Below, piece after piece: positions 10,948-32,146 of a stretch of DNA of 34,573 nucleotides; the stretch's first letter is position 1, and every line of letters begins with the position of its first letter. The DNA comes from Deltaproteobacteria bacterium (GTDB lineage Bacteria > Desulfobacterota > DSM-4660 > Desulfatiglandales > B25-G16): NCBI GenBank assembly GCA_019310725.1, contig JAFDDT010000042.1, forward strand, positions 1 to 34,573, written 5' to 3'. The position numbers and the translations under genes are program-made. The notes below the pieces were generated by a model. The model did not search any database, was not told the origin of the DNA, and was given only the letters and a program-made list of their open reading frames with translations.

Positions 10948-11652
10948 CTTTAATCTCCTTTGAATTATAAGGTGTCAACCTATTGAGCCAGCTACCCTGC
11001 GGAACGAAATATCAAGTGAATGGTATCCACATTTGCATCTCGGTGATTTGCTTTCAATGACTATTATAGATGATTTTATATTGATCTCACGTCAAATCTA
11101 ATGAATACTGAATAGCTGTGTCTGTAGACAGCCAAAACAAATTGTTTTTGTAACTTTCATGTGTGAGGAGGTATGTAAAAGTTTACCAAAAAAGTAGAAT
11201 TTGATTTCTCAAAAACCTGGTATTTTATTACATATAGCAACGTGAGTTTTCTGGAAGGTTACGTAACTGGTTGAGATCTAATGCAATTTTCAATGGTCTG
11301 ATATTGCATGATTCTTGCATGATATTAAGCACAGCATTTTATTGTTTGCATTGGACCTAACGGAGAAGGGTCTAGGATGGTCATGATGTCTTTTCTTCCG
11401 TTCCAACGCTCAATTAGGACCGGTTAATGGCAGGATCATGTTGTGCTCCTTTTTGAGTCGCCTTTTTTTGAAATCCAAAAATTATTCAAGACCAAATTAC
11501 ATATTCTATTATTGAAATTACTTTTTTTTATTGGAGTTGACTGCTTTGGCTCTAATATGATACCTGCCTTAAGGAGTCAAGCTGACCCAAAGTTTCCGGA
11601 GCACTTTGTGTGACCTGACAGACAAAAATTGCTAATTCTGGGAGTATTACAC
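10948..11652. other. AT-rich region with no gene, upstream of the SRA-HNH nuclease
   Basis: About 700 bases, visibly richer in A and T than its neighbours, with no convincing frame on either strand. It lies between a truncated gene and a restriction-type nuclease, which suggests an acquired or eroded segment. I see no clear promoter, repeat pair or tRNA in it. Confidence 0.5.
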
Positions 11653-12549
11653 ATGTTTGTTGTAGGCGAAATATACAGGCGTCGTGATCTCCACGAACTG
11701 TTCGGTGGCCAACGGCAGGGCGGAATAAGCACGCCTTCCGGTCAAAATTTTATCATGCTTTTTACCGGAAACCAGGGAAAGCAATATGGCTATAATCATG
11801 GGTGGTCTGAAGAGGGATTTTATCTTTACACTGGTGTCGGTCAACAGGGGGATATGGCATTTAAGCGGGGAAACTCAGCAATCCTCAAGCACGCAGCGAA
11901 TGGTAAAGATATTTACCTTTTTGAGAATGACAGCAATGGCAATGTTCGCTACGTAGGTGAAATGGTCTGCACAGGGTTTCGTGAAGTGCGAGGGCCGGAC
12001 ATCGATGGAAATGACCGCCGGGTAATAGTGTTTGAGCTGACATCCGCTGATGCCTTTGATGGTGCAGTTGAAGTGGATGATGAAGATGAACGGATGTGGA
12101 AGGAGCCTCTCGGCAAGCTTCGAAAACAGGCGACCGCCTCGTATATGTCAAAAAAAATTCCTTCAGAAAGAAGAACCCTTGCGATATCGAGAAGTAAGGC
12201 CATAAGGGTCTATGCGTTGAAACGAGCCAATGGTGTGTGCGAGGCGTGCGGAAAGAATGGCCCTTTCAGGACCAGTTCAGGTCGACCCTACCTTGAAACC
12301 CACCATTTACGTCGTTTGTGTGATGGTGGCCCGGATGATCCATTGTGGGTTATCGGCCTGTGCCCGAGCTGTCATAGGCGAGCCCATCATAGTGCAGATA
12401 AATCTGAGTTCAATCATCGGCTTGAACACATCGTTGAAAGGAAAGAGAGGCGAAGGGTCAAAGATCAAAGGAGCGGAATTGATCGGAGGAGCGGAAAAGA
12501 TCGGAGGAGCGGAAAAGATCCAAGGAGTGGGAGAAATAGGAGAGAATAA
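11653..12549 (+). CDS. McrA-like modification-dependent endonuclease (SRA-like domain plus HNH)
   Basis: A 298-residue two-domain protein. Residues 1-135 resemble the SRA-like domain of ScoMcrA-type enzymes: EIYRRRDLHELFGGQRQGGI, STPSGQNFIMLFTG, GWSEEGFYLYTGVGQQGDM and FKRGNSAILKHAANGKDIYLF. In relatives this domain recognises modified DNA. Residues 195-246 are an HNH nuclease: CEACG, then LETHHLRRL, GLCPSC and HRRAHH, with two CxxC pairs for structural zinc. The likely role is type IV restriction of methylated or otherwise modified foreign DNA. The tail (about 268-298) is a basic RSGKDR repeat. The ATG at 11653 is chosen over one eight codons upstream because GGGAG lies a suitable distance before it and the family begins MFVVGEIYRRRDLH. 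No methylase or other restriction subunit is nearby. Confidence 0.85.
   Translation: MFVVGEIYRRRDLHELFGGQRQGGISTPSGQNFIMLFTGNQGKQYGYNHGWSEEGFYLYTGVGQQGDMAFKRGNSAILKHAANGKDIYLFENDSNGNVRYVGEMVCTGFREVRGPDIDGNDRRVIVFELTSADAFDGAVEVDDEDERMWKEPLGKLRKQATASYMSKKIPSERRTLAISRSKAIRVYALKRANGVCEACGKNGPFRTSSGRPYLETHHLRRLCDGGPDDPLWVIGLCPSCHRRAHHSADKSEFNHRLEHIVERKERRRVKDQRSGIDRRSGKDRRSGKDPRSGRNRRE
12463..12534 (+). repeat. Four 18-bp tandem repeats in the nuclease tail
   Basis: Four consecutive 18-base units each begin with GATC (12463, 12481, 12499, 12517). The two central copies are identical; the outer ones are diverged. Because 18 is a multiple of three, unit gain or loss changes the length of the basic RSGKDR tail without shifting the frame. 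Confidence 0.85.
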
Positions 12550-26883: not shown

Positions 26884-26940
26884 TCAGGCCTGCCCTCCAG
26901 CCAAGCGGAGTGAAGCGGACAGGCGAGGCGGGTGGAGGGC
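26858..26940. repeat. GC-rich REP-like palindromic sequence overlapping the dnaE2 3' end
   Basis: AGGGCAGGCG, CAGGCCTGCCCT and GGACAGGCGAGGCGGG give several overlapping inverted arms. A similar GC-rich motif occurs at about 14068-14108 (CGCCCGCCCGCTTCGCCTGAG). On the minus strand, this block encodes the last residues of DnaE2 (HPPRLSASLRLAGGQA), which look like translated repeat rather than conserved protein. Confidence 0.55.
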
Positions 26941-29900
26941 CTCTCGTTTGTATCTGTCCAGAAATCCTATCCAGGCCACCGTCAGGGTTATGGAACCGAA
27001 ATCCTCCTCCACCTTACCTTTGATGATATAGGGGAGCATCTCATTCAGCATATGACAAAACCTATTGTACATTTTTGGAAAGAATACGGTTTCATAAAGG
27101 CCGGTGGTATCCTCAAATGAGACAAATTTCATGGGATCGCCACCCTTTGTATGTACGGTCTTCCCGGTCACCAGCCAACCGATGGTTGTCACCCGTTTCC
27201 CCACATGGGCGTGGAGGTCCCGGGCACTGACGTAATCCAAACCTTTTAAGAGTCCTTCATATCGGTCGAGGGGGTGGAGGGAAAGGAGAAGGCCCATGGT
27301 ATCCAGTTCATGTCTCAGCATGAGATTTTTTGGATAAGGAGGTTGTTTCACGGGGGAGAGGGGAGGGGGTGTGGAAAACAGGCTGGGGGTATTCTCTTCT
27401 TGATTTTCCCCACCGTAGAATCGAAGGGCCCGCCACATCAGAGAGGGTCTACTTAAGCCACGGGCGATGCTGTCAAAGCAGCCAATCTTGATAAGGATCC
27501 TGACATCCTGGAGGTGTACGTGATGACCGACCCTGCGCAGGAATTCATCAAAGCCAGTGAAGGGACCGTTTTTGGAGCGTTCATGAATGATGAACCCCCG
27601 ACCCTCCCGGGAGAGGGCCTTGAGCTGCATGAGACCGACCCGAATCTCCCTGTTGTGGCCGGTATATTTGATCTCGCTTTGGTTGATATCGGGAGGAAGG
27701 ATTTTAAGCCCCATCCGTCTTGCTTCCGACAGATAACCAAACGTAGAGTAATAGCCCCCGCCGTTGGAAATGATAGATGCCATGAACTCGGCTGGATAAT
27801 GGGCCCTGAGATAGGCGGATTTATAGGCTACTAAGGTGTAGCTGGCCGAGTGCGGTTTACAGAAGCTGTAACCGTCAAAGCCCATCATCATGTGCCAGAC
27901 ATCCTCTATCACTTCCAGGCTGACACCCCGGTTGCTCGCCCCCCGAATAAATCGGGCATAAAAATCACGGAGTTTCTTTTCCCTATGTTTCTTGCTGACT
28001 ACCTTCCTCAGGGTATCCGCCTCCGCAGGATCAAATCCAGCCAGATGCATGGCCGCCTGGCTTAACTGCTCCTGAAAGACCATGACCCCCAGAGTTTCCT
28101 CCAGGACTGGCCGTAAAAGGGGGTGGGGCGTATCCCAGGGCTGGCCATGGAGCCTGGCTACCCATGTGTGTATGCTTCGGTTTGAGGCTGGCCTGATGAT
28201 GGAGGTGACCACCACGTTGAGGTGGAAGTGGTCCAGCCGGGAGTACTCCTCAAAGCTAAAGCCAGAGCTGACCTTTTGCAGCACCTGCCGTGTGGCGGGG
28301 CTCTCAAAATAGAAGACACCAAAGGTATCACCGCGGTAGAAGATCTCCATTGTCTTGGGATCATTTATGGGGTTCCAGGTTGAGTAATCGATGCGTCGGC
28401 CATAATTCCTCTCCACCAGACCAAGGGCATCCCGGATGACGGCAAGGCTCCGGTTTCCCAAGATATCTATCTTGACAAGCCTTGCGTCCTCCACCGAATC
28501 CTTTTCCCACTGGAGCACCTGAACCCCGTTTGCAGAGATTTCCACCGGGCAGTAACGGCGAATCTCATCGGGCACGATCACCAGACCGCCGCAGTGGACG
28601 GAAAGGTGATTGAGGTGATCTTCGAGCTGAACTGCGGCACGTAAAATCTCATCCCATGGTTTCTTGAACTCGATCCCTCTCATCTTGGGATGCTTTGCCA
28701 GCTCCCTCCAGATTCCCTTCAGGTGCCAGCCAAAACCAATTTTGCTGGTCACCCGACTTATTTCTGCCTCGGTGAGGCCGAAGACCTTTGCTACCTCCCT
28801 GATGGCGGACCTGGCTCCATAGGTGTTATGGTTGGCGACCATGGCAGCCCTTCGGTTTCCGTATCTGGAGAAGGCATAGTCAATGATCTGATCCCGTTCG
28901 TCCCATGCGAAGTCCACATCAATGTCCGGAGGGTCCATCCGTCCCGGGTTTAAAAAACGCTCAAAGAAGAGGTGGTGTTTTATAGGATCGACATGGGTGA
29001 TGCCTAAGGCGTAGGAGACGATGGAGGCAGCGGCGCTTCCCCGGCCGCATGATCGGCAGGCCCTTTTGGTAATATCGGCCACCACCAGAAAATAGTGGGC
29101 GAAGTTTTTCTCCCGGATGATCTTCATCTCGTGCTCCACTCGCTCCTTGACCGCCGGAGTAAGTGTTCCATACCGCCGCCTGCAACCCTCTATGGTAGCC
29201 TGGTAGAGGGTTTCATAGGCCTCCCTGTCTGTCATCTGCTTGAAACGGGGGAAGATGATGCGGTCAAAATCCCAACTCATAAGACATCGTTCGGCCACCT
29301 CGAGGGTATTACGGATTGCCAGGGGGGCATGGGGAAACTGGTCGATCATGGATTGGGCGGCATTCAAGAAATTGTGCTCCCGGCAGATGTCTTCACACCG
29401 TAAACGGGAAAGCTTGCTGTTCAGGGCTACGGCCCGAAGAATCCGGTGGAGCGGAAACTGATCTTCCCTAATCAGGTAGACCCGGTTGGTGGCGAGAGGG
29501 GGGATGCCACTTTTCCGGGAAAAGGCATAGCAGTTGGCCATATTGTAGCCCGGGGACATTTCAACAAAGAGGTCATCTTTTGAATCTTTTTTAAGGGCCT
29601 TGAGCAATGTGGAGTCGTCGGAGAAGATGATGAGTCCCTCACGCCGTTCCTTGACGGATTTGATCAGATCAAAGTCCTGATGGCAGTGGCGGTCTGAGAT
29701 AATCCGGCAGAGGTTGGCATATCCCTCGTGGTTTCGGACCAGCAACACAGCCCGGTGCTCATCGGTTGTAAGCTCACTGCCCACGATGGGCTGGATACCC
29801 ACCTCACTGGCTGTCTGGATAAAAAAGACCAGCCCGTAGAGTCCATTGGTATCGGTGAGGGCGAGTTTATCCATGCCCTGGTTCTTGGCGGATTGGCAGA

Positions 29901-29970
29901 GTTCTTCAATGGTGCCGATACCCCAACCCCGGGAATAGTGGGAATGGACGTTGAGATGGACAAAGTTCAT
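26884..29970 (-). CDS. dnaE2: Error-prone DNA polymerase III alpha subunit, DnaE2 type
   Basis: A 1028-residue C-family polymerase, the length of DnaE2/ImuC rather than the ~1160 of replicative DnaE. An N-terminal PHP domain (LNVHSHYSRG, HxH at residues 9-11) has TDTN where an additional His is common. The palm carries CGRGSAAASIVSYALGITHVDP, PPDIDVDF with catalytic Asp349 and Asp351, and VKIDILGN with Asp502. The fingers include FQEQLSQAAMHLAGF, and the C-terminal OB fold includes VTTIGWLVTGKTVHTKGG. The start at 29970 is chosen because it yields the conserved MNFVHLNVHSHYS; 40 upstream in-frame codons read as translated repeat. As the last gene of lexA-imuB-dnaE2 it should perform SOS-induced translesion synthesis with ImuB. 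Confidence 0.94.
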   Translation of the reverse strand: MNFVHLNVHSHYSRGWGIGTIEELCQSAKNQGMDKLALTDTNGLYGLVFFIQTASEVGIQPIVGSELTTDEHRAVLLVRNHEGYANLCRIISDRHCHQDFDLIKSVKERREGLIIFSDDSTLLKALKKDSKDDLFVEMSPGYNMANCYAFSRKSGIPPLATNRVYLIREDQFPLHRILRAVALNSKLSRLRCEDICREHNFLNAAQSMIDQFPHAPLAIRNTLEVAERCLMSWDFDRIIFPRFKQMTDREAYETLYQATIEGCRRRYGTLTPAVKERVEHEMKIIREKNFAHYFLVVADITKRACRSCGRGSAAASIVSYALGITHVDPIKHHLFFERFLNPGRMDPPDIDVDFAWDERDQIIDYAFSRYGNRRAAMVANHNTYGARSAIREVAKVFGLTEAEISRVTSKIGFGWHLKGIWRELAKHPKMRGIEFKKPWDEILRAAVQLEDHLNHLSVHCGGLVIVPDEIRRYCPVEISANGVQVLQWEKDSVEDARLVKIDILGNRSLAVIRDALGLVERNYGRRIDYSTWNPINDPKTMEIFYRGDTFGVFYFESPATRQVLQKVSSGFSFEEYSRLDHFHLNVVVTSIIRPASNRSIHTWVARLHGQPWDTPHPLLRPVLEETLGVMVFQEQLSQAAMHLAGFDPAEADTLRKVVSKKHREKKLRDFYARFIRGASNRGVSLEVIEDVWHMMMGFDGYSFCKPHSASYTLVAYKSAYLRAHYPAEFMASIISNGGGYYSTFGYLSEARRMGLKILPPDINQSEIKYTGHNREIRVGLMQLKALSREGRGFIIHERSKNGPFTGFDEFLRRVGHHVHLQDVRILIKIGCFDSIARGLSRPSLMWRALRFYGGENQEENTPSLFSTPPPLSPVKQPPYPKNLMLRHELDTMGLLLSLHPLDRYEGLLKGLDYVSARDLHAHVGKRVTTIGWLVTGKTVHTKGGDPMKFVSFEDTTGLYETVFFPKMYNRFCHMLNEMLPYIIKGKVEEDFGSITLTVAWIGFLDRYKREALHPPRLSASLRLAGGQA

Positions 29971-30238
29971 GATAGTATCTCGCCCGCTCCCCTCGACTTG
30001 GCTCAGGATCGCTTGAGTCCTAAGAGCACACGGGGAAGCTATTGAAGAATATGATTGCTTAACATGATAGAGGAGAGGGTCTTGAGGCAAAAACGAACAT
30101 GTTCTTTTTTGCCTTGAAACCTCTCCCCATGTTCAATTCCATCACAGGGATTGAACTCCCTGGGTCGCAGGCATGTTAGGCAATCATTTTTGACGCTCTG
30201 TGCCTCCGCGAGCTCTGTGAGAGATAAGAAAAGTGTTC
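29971..30238. other. Spacer between imuB and dnaE2
   Basis: A 268-base spacer inside the putative operon. It contains TCTCGCCCGCTC...GGATCGCTTGAG (about 29977-30016), similar to TCTCGCCCGCTC...GAATCGCTCGAG at about 32193-32234. It also contains the hairpin CAGGGA-ttgaac-TCCCTG (plus-strand sense, about 30145-30162) and a CTCTGTGAGAGATAAG-type repeat next to the imuB stop. No imuA or other gene is present, and no copy of the proposed LexA operator. Confidence 0.5.
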
Positions 30239-31402
30239 TCAAACCGCCCTGCCGTACCTGATCACTTCATCTCCATACCTCTCCCTGATGCGATTCAGGG
30301 CCTGGGTCGCCAGGGCCTTTTTCTCTATGACAGGAGCCTGTGCGGGGAAAAGAGAGAGCTGTGAGGTGGGAGGGGAAAAGTCCTGAAACCATACCTTTAT
30401 AAATCTGACTCTCAAACGGCGTCGGCAGGCCCTTAAAAAGATCCTCGCCAGAGGTGCATAGAGGTCGAAATCCCAGAAACTCATACGGGGCAGATTGATC
30501 TGGCGCATGATCTCTTCCTGGTCAGTATACCTGAAGATCAACCCTGCCTTGCGGGGCAGCAATACCCTGCTCGAAAGCTGATGGGAGCACCTTTCCACCA
30601 ATCCATAGAGGATTCCCAGCAGCTTCCGGTCATCGTTCTCGTCCTGGGGGAGGGTGACCTCCTCGGCTACCGTGGGTTTCATGCGAGGAGGATAAACCGG
30701 GGTGGGGTCTATGCCAAGGGCGCGCTGATGGATCACGTAGGCCTGCTGGCCAAAAACAAGCTTCAGCGTCCCCATATCGAGGGCAGCTACCTCCCGGACT
30801 AAGAAGATATTCAGCTCTTCCAGAAGGATTCTCCTGCGAACATGGCCTATACCAGGCAGGACACTTGCCTTCAGGGGGGCCATGAACGAGGATTCCTGAC
30901 CGTGATCCACATCCCGTAACCCTTCAGATGATACAATCCTGGAGGCGATGCTGGAAACCATCTTGTTTCCCGCTACGCCCACCATCCCCGAGAGACGTAA
31001 ATGCTCCTTGATTTCCCGTTTAAGACGGCTGGCCGTGTCTTTTGCCCTCCCCCAGAGACGATCGGTCCCTGTCACATCCAGATAGATATGACCCGGCCGT
31101 GAGGGTTCCCAGAGGGGTGTATATTGTGCCACCGTCTTGGCAAGGACCTGGCAGACCTTTCCCGTGAAATCCAGATCAGGGGGTAAGACGGTTAGACCAG
31201 GGCAGAATTTCACGGCCTTGTCAAGGGGCATGCCCTTAAAGATACCTTCCCTCCGGGCCTCAGGTGACACAGAGAGGAGAAGCGCTCGTTCTGAGTGAGG
31301 CGTGGCAATTGCCACAGGGCGATCCCTGAGCTCTGGCTGAGAGACACGTGCCACAGCGATGGGAAAGGCTGGGATATGAAGATGGATGATGTGACGATAC
31401 AT
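30239..31402 (-). CDS. imuB: ImuB-type catalytically dead Y-family polymerase homologue
   Basis: A 387-residue Y-family (UmuC/DinB) protein whose polymerase acids are missing. Aligned by eye to DinB, Asp8 of HVDMDAFF becomes His9 (HLHIPAF), and the Asp103-Glu104 pair of SIDEAYLDVTG becomes Gly104-His105 (GHIYLDVTG). The palm and little-finger architecture is otherwise kept: GMPLDKAVKFCPGL, GVAGNKMVSSIASRI, VLPGIGHVRRRILLEEL, and AEEVTLPQDENDDRKLL. Near the C terminus QLSLF (348-352) is a canonical beta-clamp-binding motif. In characterised mutasomes ImuB bridges the clamp and DnaE2 without synthesising DNA. It begins 56 bases after lexA and precedes dnaE2. An annotation as active DNA polymerase IV would be misleading. 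Confidence 0.88.
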   Translation of the reverse strand: MYRHIIHLHIPAFPIAVARVSQPELRDRPVAIATPHSERALLLSVSPEARREGIFKGMPLDKAVKFCPGLTVLPPDLDFTGKVCQVLAKTVAQYTPLWEPSRPGHIYLDVTGTDRLWGRAKDTASRLKREIKEHLRLSGMVGVAGNKMVSSIASRIVSSEGLRDVDHGQESSFMAPLKASVLPGIGHVRRRILLEELNIFLVREVAALDMGTLKLVFGQQAYVIHQRALGIDPTPVYPPRMKPTVAEEVTLPQDENDDRKLLGILYGLVERCSHQLSSRVLLPRKAGLIFRYTDQEEIMRQINLPRMSFWDFDLYAPLARIFLRACRRRLRVRFIKVWFQDFSPPTSQLSLFPAQAPVIEKKALATQALNRIRERYGDEVIRYGRAV

Positions 31403-31458
31403 GGCTCAAAATTCCGCAATAGAAGTAAGCAGTAGGCAGTAAGCACCACCCAAGCTTC

Positions 31459-32073
31459 TTAATTTGAGTGCCTAAAGTGCCTCATAACCCCTACGACCTT
31501 TCCTTCAATCCGAAGATTTCCCTCTTTGACGATGATGGGTTCCATGCCCGTGTGAGCGGGGCGGAGTTCCACATAATTTTTCCGCTTGTAGTATTTCTTA
31601 ATGGTCACTTCATCGTTGATCAGGGCCACTACGGTTTCCCCGTTCTCGGCTGTCGGTTGCCTCCTGACTACGATGAAATCCCCGTCCAGAATCCCATCCT
31701 CTTTCATGGAATCTCCTTTAACCTGGAGCACAAAGTGGTCTCCCTGTCCTATCATGGATGGGGGGACCTCAATCACATCTATGTCTTCCACGGCCTCGAT
31801 AGGTTTTCCTGCCGCCACCCTTCCCAGGAGGGGAAACTCAAACCGTCTGGTTTCCACAGGACTGATCACCTCAATGGCCCGTTTCTGGTTCTTTTTGCTA
31901 GGAAGACGGATATAGCCTTTCCCCTCCAGGATCTTGAGATAGGTGGTGACTGTGTTGTAAGAGGTGAAACCGAAATGGGAACATATTTCTTCAAAGCTGG
32001 GGGGTCGGCCCCAGTCCTCCATATAGCGAGAGACATATCCCAGGAATGCCTTTTGCTTTTCCGTTAGCTTCAT
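31459..32073 (-). CDS. lexA: SOS repressor LexA
   Basis: A 204-residue LexA. The N-terminal winged helix (residues 1-65: KLTEKQKAFLGYVSRYMEDWGRPPSFEEI, then NTVTTYLKILEGKGYI) binds operators. The C-terminal S24 autoprotease domain has the cleavage site Ala88-Gly89 (GRVAAGKP), nucleophile Ser122 (KGDSMKEDGI) and general base Lys159 (EVTIKKYY). RecA-filament-stimulated self-cleavage should relieve repression. GGGGAGG precedes the ATG. It heads the lexA-imuB-dnaE2 unit, so the repressor controls its own mutagenesis cassette. The promoter contains two matching candidate operators. Another lexA may exist elsewhere; that cannot be judged here. Confidence 0.95.
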   Translation of the reverse strand: MKLTEKQKAFLGYVSRYMEDWGRPPSFEEICSHFGFTSYNTVTTYLKILEGKGYIRLPSKKNQKRAIEVISPVETRRFEFPLLGRVAAGKPIEAVEDIDVIEVPPSMIGQGDHFVLQVKGDSMKEDGILDGDFIVVRRQPTAENGETVVALINDEVTIKKYYKRKNYVELRPAHTGMEPIIVKEGNLRIEGKVVGVMRHFRHSN

Positions 32074-32091
32074 GTGTTCCTCCCCTTATGA

Positions 32092-32138
32092 CAGTAAAAC
32101 TTACAGTTTTATAGATTTAAATATTGTAAATTTTACTG
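32092..32138. promoter_or_regulatory. Two candidate LexA operators in inverted orientation
   Basis: CAGTAAAACTTACAGT (32092-32107, plus strand) and CAGTAAAATTTACAAT (32138-32123, minus strand) agree at 14 of 16 positions. Each has a GTAA/TTAC inverted-repeat core. One lies inside the promoter spacer and the other over the predicted transcription start, with centres 31 bases apart, about three helical turns. The first is also part of TAAAACT-tac-AGTTTTA (32095-32111), a perfect 7-bp inverted repeat. That these bind LexA is an inference from position and symmetry. Confidence 0.6.
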
Positions 32139-32146
32139 GAAGTCAA
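32118..32146 (-). promoter_or_regulatory. Likely sigma-70 promoter of lexA-imuB-dnaE2
   Basis: On the minus strand TTGACT (32146-32141) is followed, after exactly 17 bases, by TATTTA (32123-32118). Transcription would start near 32111. The spacer holds one candidate LexA site and the start region the other. Confidence 0.55.

Follow-up and report, generated by a model that had tools for sequence, protein, structure and literature searches.

Organization and putative regulation of the cassette

A three-gene unit in the window (the whole 34,573-nucleotide stretch of DNA analysed) is probably a LexA-repressed translesion-synthesis operon, in which an inactive Y-family protein would act as a scaffold for a DnaE2-type polymerase and RecA would dock in the place of ImuA. 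Mutasomes usually combine ImuA (or ImuA'), ImuB, and DnaE2, with ImuA as a RecA-like accessory protein. The initial annotation had placed lexA, a Y-family gene, and a 1028-residue dnaE in one minus-strand unit from which imuA is missing, and on inspection of the frames between lexA and dnaE, both the arrangement, with its coordinates, and the absence of imuA from the cassette were confirmed.

The first gene, lexA (31459-32073, minus strand), encodes an SOS repressor of 204 aa that scores 199 bits with the NCBIfam lexA model TIGR00498 (cut-off, 111). It is followed by the gene for a dead Y-family polymerase homologue of 387 aa (30239-31402, minus strand), assigned by the Pfam domains IMS and IMS_C together with motif and AlphaFold-model comparisons. 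Beyond a spacer without a gene (29971-30238, minus strand) lies the gene for a DnaE2-type C-family polymerase with an intact Asp triad, 1028 aa long when read from a conserved ATG (26884-29970, minus strand). The minus strand between lexA, the polY gene, and dnaE holds no further substantial frame, and no imuA-like frame was found among the three cassette genes. The source genome is a draft MAG (3.9 Mb, 343 contigs, 93% complete) whose kin are uncultured Desulfobacterota. Elsewhere in the window, a frame of 306 aa (11629-12549) resembles, though weakly, the HNH portion of IscB (26 bits against a cut-off of 175).

Two inverted copies of the motif CAGTAAAnnTTACAGTA lie upstream of lexA and are putative LexA operators. 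Operator 1, CAGTAAAATTTACAATA (32122-32138, minus strand), has one mismatch to the consensus CAGTAAANNTTACAGTA and stands beside a promoter-like TTGACT -35 element; operator 2, CAGTAAAACTTACAGTT (32092-32108, plus strand), is inverted relative to it. The consensus recurs upstream of lexA in many relatives, where the CAGTAAAnnTTACAGTA motif is found at the lexA promoter next to a TTGACT hexamer. Across the whole genome, one-mismatch matches were confined to the two lexA sites and a third on another contig, inside an unrelated antiporter-like operon (C306). The paired motifs fit LexA autoregulation as putative operators. A scan for a wider regulon, allowing up to two mismatches, gave 18 matches versus 10 in the control, which is near background.

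A catalytically dead Y-family protein with clamp and RecA-NT motifs

The window PolY has a Y-family fold by profile, and its AlphaFold model matches DinB structures. Alignment to Escherichia coli DinB showed that the three catalytic acids are absent: D8 is replaced by H9 (31370-31378, minus strand) and D103/E104 by G104-H105 (31088-31093, minus strand). This loss is common to the protein's family. The genome's second PolY, on contig C31, keeps its catalytic residues.

Two other motifs are retained toward the C terminus. The β-clamp-binding motif QLSLF (30347-30361, minus strand) is conserved among about 70 relatives (Q, 87%; L, 85%; F, 85%). The chain's C-terminal segment, KKALATQALNRIRERYGDEVIRYGRA (30245-30322, minus strand), is a RecA-NT motif by hhalign of the family profile: the final 26 residues of the family match local RecA N termini with a probability of 86% and an E value of 4.7e-6, and this tail scores higher than any other segment of the family profile. 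We base the RecA-NT assignment on the family profile because the window sequence taken singly did not reach significance against the RecA N terminus (186 of 2000 shuffles scored equally well or better).

The chain ends right after the RecA-NT motif, and Pfam finds no ImuB-C domain in it; we therefore call the protein an inactive PolY (iPolY) and not a standard ImuB. By its sequence, then, the window Y-family protein is catalytically dead and yet no standard ImuB, and the name imuB given to its gene in the initial annotation fails in the strict sense, since the ImuB-C domain was found neither in the protein nor in the genome.

The second DnaE polymerase and the spacer before its gene

The catalytic Asp triad of the window DnaE is intact (PDIDVDF, KIDILGN). 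Its PHP motif is altered, with TDT replacing TDH; its internal clamp motif is degenerate, the canonical form being missing; and little sequence remains beyond the OB fold. Most relatives likewise have only a short stretch past the OB fold, in contrast to DnaE1. The NCBIfam DnaE1 model scores the protein at 693 bits and the DnaE2 model at 584, neither reaching its cut-off. In a 63-sequence tree, rooted only by the choice of DnaE1 (no PolC root) and with some long-branched references, the window DnaE belongs to a clade, itself well supported, of DnaE proteins that accompany iPolY. This clade neighbours the PolY-linked, DnaE2B-type DnaE proteins of Bacteroidetes and is separate from three ImuA-linked plasmid DnaE2A references and from DnaE1, including the genome's own on C239. 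We consider the window DnaE likely to be DnaE2B. Streptomyces DnaE references fall elsewhere in the tree, on long branches; on two Streptomyces plasmids, a divergent DnaE gene (L124:3395-7851 and L132:2951-7401) is followed by one for a helix-hairpin-helix protein of 335 to 337 aa that resembles a truncated inactive PolY.

The 268-base spacer between iPolY and dnaE2 (29971-30238) forms a strong hairpin (-99 kcal/mol; z, -5.2) and consists in part of dispersed repeats, of which incomplete copies occur on seven further contigs, in agreement with its earlier description as repeat-like. It contains no convincing coding frame, and no intrinsic terminator was called within it on the coding strand, so that we rejected both a hidden gene and a terminator. 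In 40 of the 66 loci, polY and dnaE are no more than 100 bases apart, and the window spacer is thus a local insertion-like feature, one that could weaken co-transcription of dnaE2.

ImuA, ImuB-C, and other polymerases in the source genome

The initial annotation had left room for an ImuA encoded elsewhere, but genome-wide searches with three models found only RecA. The NCBIfam ImuA model, whose cut-off no control genome exceeds, Caulobacter included, gave a single sub-cut-off match, the RecA gene on contig C183, and the Pfam RecA model placed that same gene above cut-off as the only family member. Its product is a RecA of the ordinary kind: it has a P-loop, and its N terminus is normal. Because the NCBIfam cut-off misses Caulobacter too, we built an ImuA alignment of our own from three ImuA genes in annotated imuA-imuB-dnaE2 plasmid cassettes. 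Its best match was a RecA-sized frame in 38 of 41 genomes (40 relatives plus the source), among them three single-contig relatives (G004, G014, and G035); in fifteen of these frames, fetched as loci, direct reading of the sequence showed the RecA P-loop. A genome-wide profile search for a standalone ImuB-C (DUF6504) yielded nothing above cut-off. The wider search for DnaE and Y-family genes that had been proposed returned two proteins, a housekeeping DnaE1 (C239), whose PHP motif is intact and whose clamp motif is QLNMF, and the active-site-intact PolY on C31.

Conservation and spread of the cassette

Counting the source genome, the relatives search covered 41 genomes, 36 of which gave a Y-family match. 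Among 29 loci from relatives, the polY gene has LexA as a visible neighbour in 26 and DnaE in 27; the loci without one or the other are those that stop short. The three-gene order thus recurs in relatives far beyond chance. Outside the order, the cassette occurs in Desulfuromonadales, three members of which (L085, L089, and L109) share the iPolY family with the window, as well as in Nitrospirae, Acidobacteria, KSB1, and Fibrobacterota and on a plasmid of Desulfosarcina ovata. Since the arrangement is conserved over the order and in other phyla, we rejected a recent or local loss of imuA.

Proposed mechanism and competing readings

In the mechanism that we favour, DNA damage would activate RecA, LexA would cleave itself, and lexA-iPolY-dnaE2 would be switched on, with transcription presumably continuing across the spacer. 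The dead iPolY would serve as the scaffold of a physical complex, tied to the β clamp through QLSLF and carrying DnaE2 on its body, while its RecA-NT tail would bind a RecA filament end or a RecA monomer, where ImuA sits in the classical mutasome. DNA synthesis, probably mutagenic, would be carried out by DnaE2. The initial annotation had offered a two-component mutasome as one option; this stands for the subunits that the cassette encodes but probably not for the system as a whole, because the RecA-NT motif in the PolY tail makes RecA a likely third subunit.

A strict two-component mutasome, made of iPolY and DnaE2 with no RecA-family subunit at all, would suit a cassette with only two nonregulatory genes, and fusions of PolY to DnaE do exist elsewhere. 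The conserved C-terminal tail, however, matches the RecA N terminus and would have no obvious use unless RecA binds it, and we regard this reading as distinctly unlikely. More improbable still is that an ImuA exists and was missed, either because it lies in the 7% of the MAG that was not assembled or because it has diverged beyond detection. The genome's 93% completeness and 343 contigs leave some room for this, as does an NCBIfam ImuA model that puts no control genome, not even Caulobacter, over its cut-off. Against it stand the RecA-sized best matches of our own ImuA alignment, those in the single-contig genomes among them, the one RecA-family member above the Pfam cut-off, and the reports of such genomes without imuA in the 2019 and 2026 surveys (PMC6511836, PMC12926913).

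The second DnaE might also be damage induced but not mutagenic, serving, for example, in accurate gap filling, in which case "mutasome" would be a misnomer. Its best NCBIfam match is of the DnaE1 type, though below cut-off like the other; the tree is unrooted as to DnaE1 and DnaE2A; and DnaE2 roles vary by species (PMC3919608). The TDT in the PHP motif, the missing canonical internal clamp motif, the end of most relatives soon past the OB fold, and the position of the gene beside lexA and a dead PolY all argue the other way. We think a nonmutagenic role unlikely, if slightly less so than the strict two-component system, and retain translesion synthesis with RecA as the proposed docking partner.

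Comparison with known systems

The arrangement has already been described and explained. Timinskas and Venclovas proposed in 2019 modules of DnaE2B-iPolY-RecA composition in genomes without imuA (PMC6511836), and their 2026 survey described such modules with AlphaFold support, including a widely spread group whose type is Geobacter bemidjiensis DinB2 (PMC12926913). The window is like these modules in its inactive PolY with RecA-NT beside a second C-family polymerase and in that no ImuA, ImuB, or ImuB-C was found in the 93% complete MAG, RecA being the presumed partner; no point of difference from them was established. As judged from the published description, the window most likely belongs to the gbDinB2-like DnaE2B-iPolY-RecA group.

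With the ImuA-ImuB-DnaE2 mutasome of Pseudomonas and Mycobacterium the window shares a LexA-linked operon, a dead PolY with a clamp motif, and a DnaE2-type polymerase. It differs in having no ImuA in the cassette or the genome, no ImuB-C (DUF6504) after RecA-NT, and a DnaE outside the DnaE2A clade as represented by the three plasmid references. In mycobacteria, binding of ImuA' by the RecA-NT motif of ImuB has been demonstrated (PMC11791113). A plasmid of Deinococcus taeanensis (L129) fits the DnaE2X-iPolY-ImuBC-RecA type and has the lexA-PolY-dnaE order without imuA, as in the window, but it carries a separate DUF6504 (ImuB-C) gene, for which the window genome has no match above cut-off. Another likeness is the damage-induced lexA-imuB-C-polY operon of Geobacter sulfurreducens, also a deltaproteobacterium (PMC6511836); there the PolY is active and DnaE2 is lacking, whereas the window pairs a dead PolY with DnaE2.

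A good part of the research on DnaE2 mutagenesis presumes ImuA and ImuB. Cassettes without ImuA point to RecA itself as a possible ancestral partner, and such a cassette is a simple two-protein system in which to probe RecA control of a DnaE2 polymerase.

Variant cassettes in other lineages

The Desulfosarcina ovata plasmid, typed as mobilizable, bears lexA-DUF72-iPolY-dnaE (L121, NZ_AP021877.1, 56079-67075), and the cassette can thus travel. Its DUF72 gene lies just upstream of iPolY (L121:2006-2812). The same holds in seven further loci (L090, L092, L095, L097, L108, L113, and L120), and where lexA is visible, the DUF72 gene stands between lexA and iPolY. Such cassettes occur in Desulfosarcina, Desulfobulbus, Acidobacteria, Fibrobacterota, and Phycisphaerae; the DUF72 gene is a possible extra component.

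In Verrucomicrobiota, PolY and DnaE are fused in one chain whose PolY part is apparently active; in four of the five cases the fusion immediately follows a LexA-like gene, and most genomes with a fusion also encode a separate DnaE of about 1200 aa. Because these natural fusions exist, PolY and DnaE can be argued to touch. The words "fusion" and "DUF72" are absent from the main text of the 2026 survey (PMC12926913), and the fusions and the DUF72 gene in the cassette may be less known. A joint reading of the widely spread cassette as a compact mutasome, with direct PolY-DnaE2 contact that goes as far as fusion in Verrucomicrobiota, RecA in place of ImuA, and DUF72 as an additional, undescribed subunit or regulator in several phyla, is tentative, and we consider it rather unlikely.
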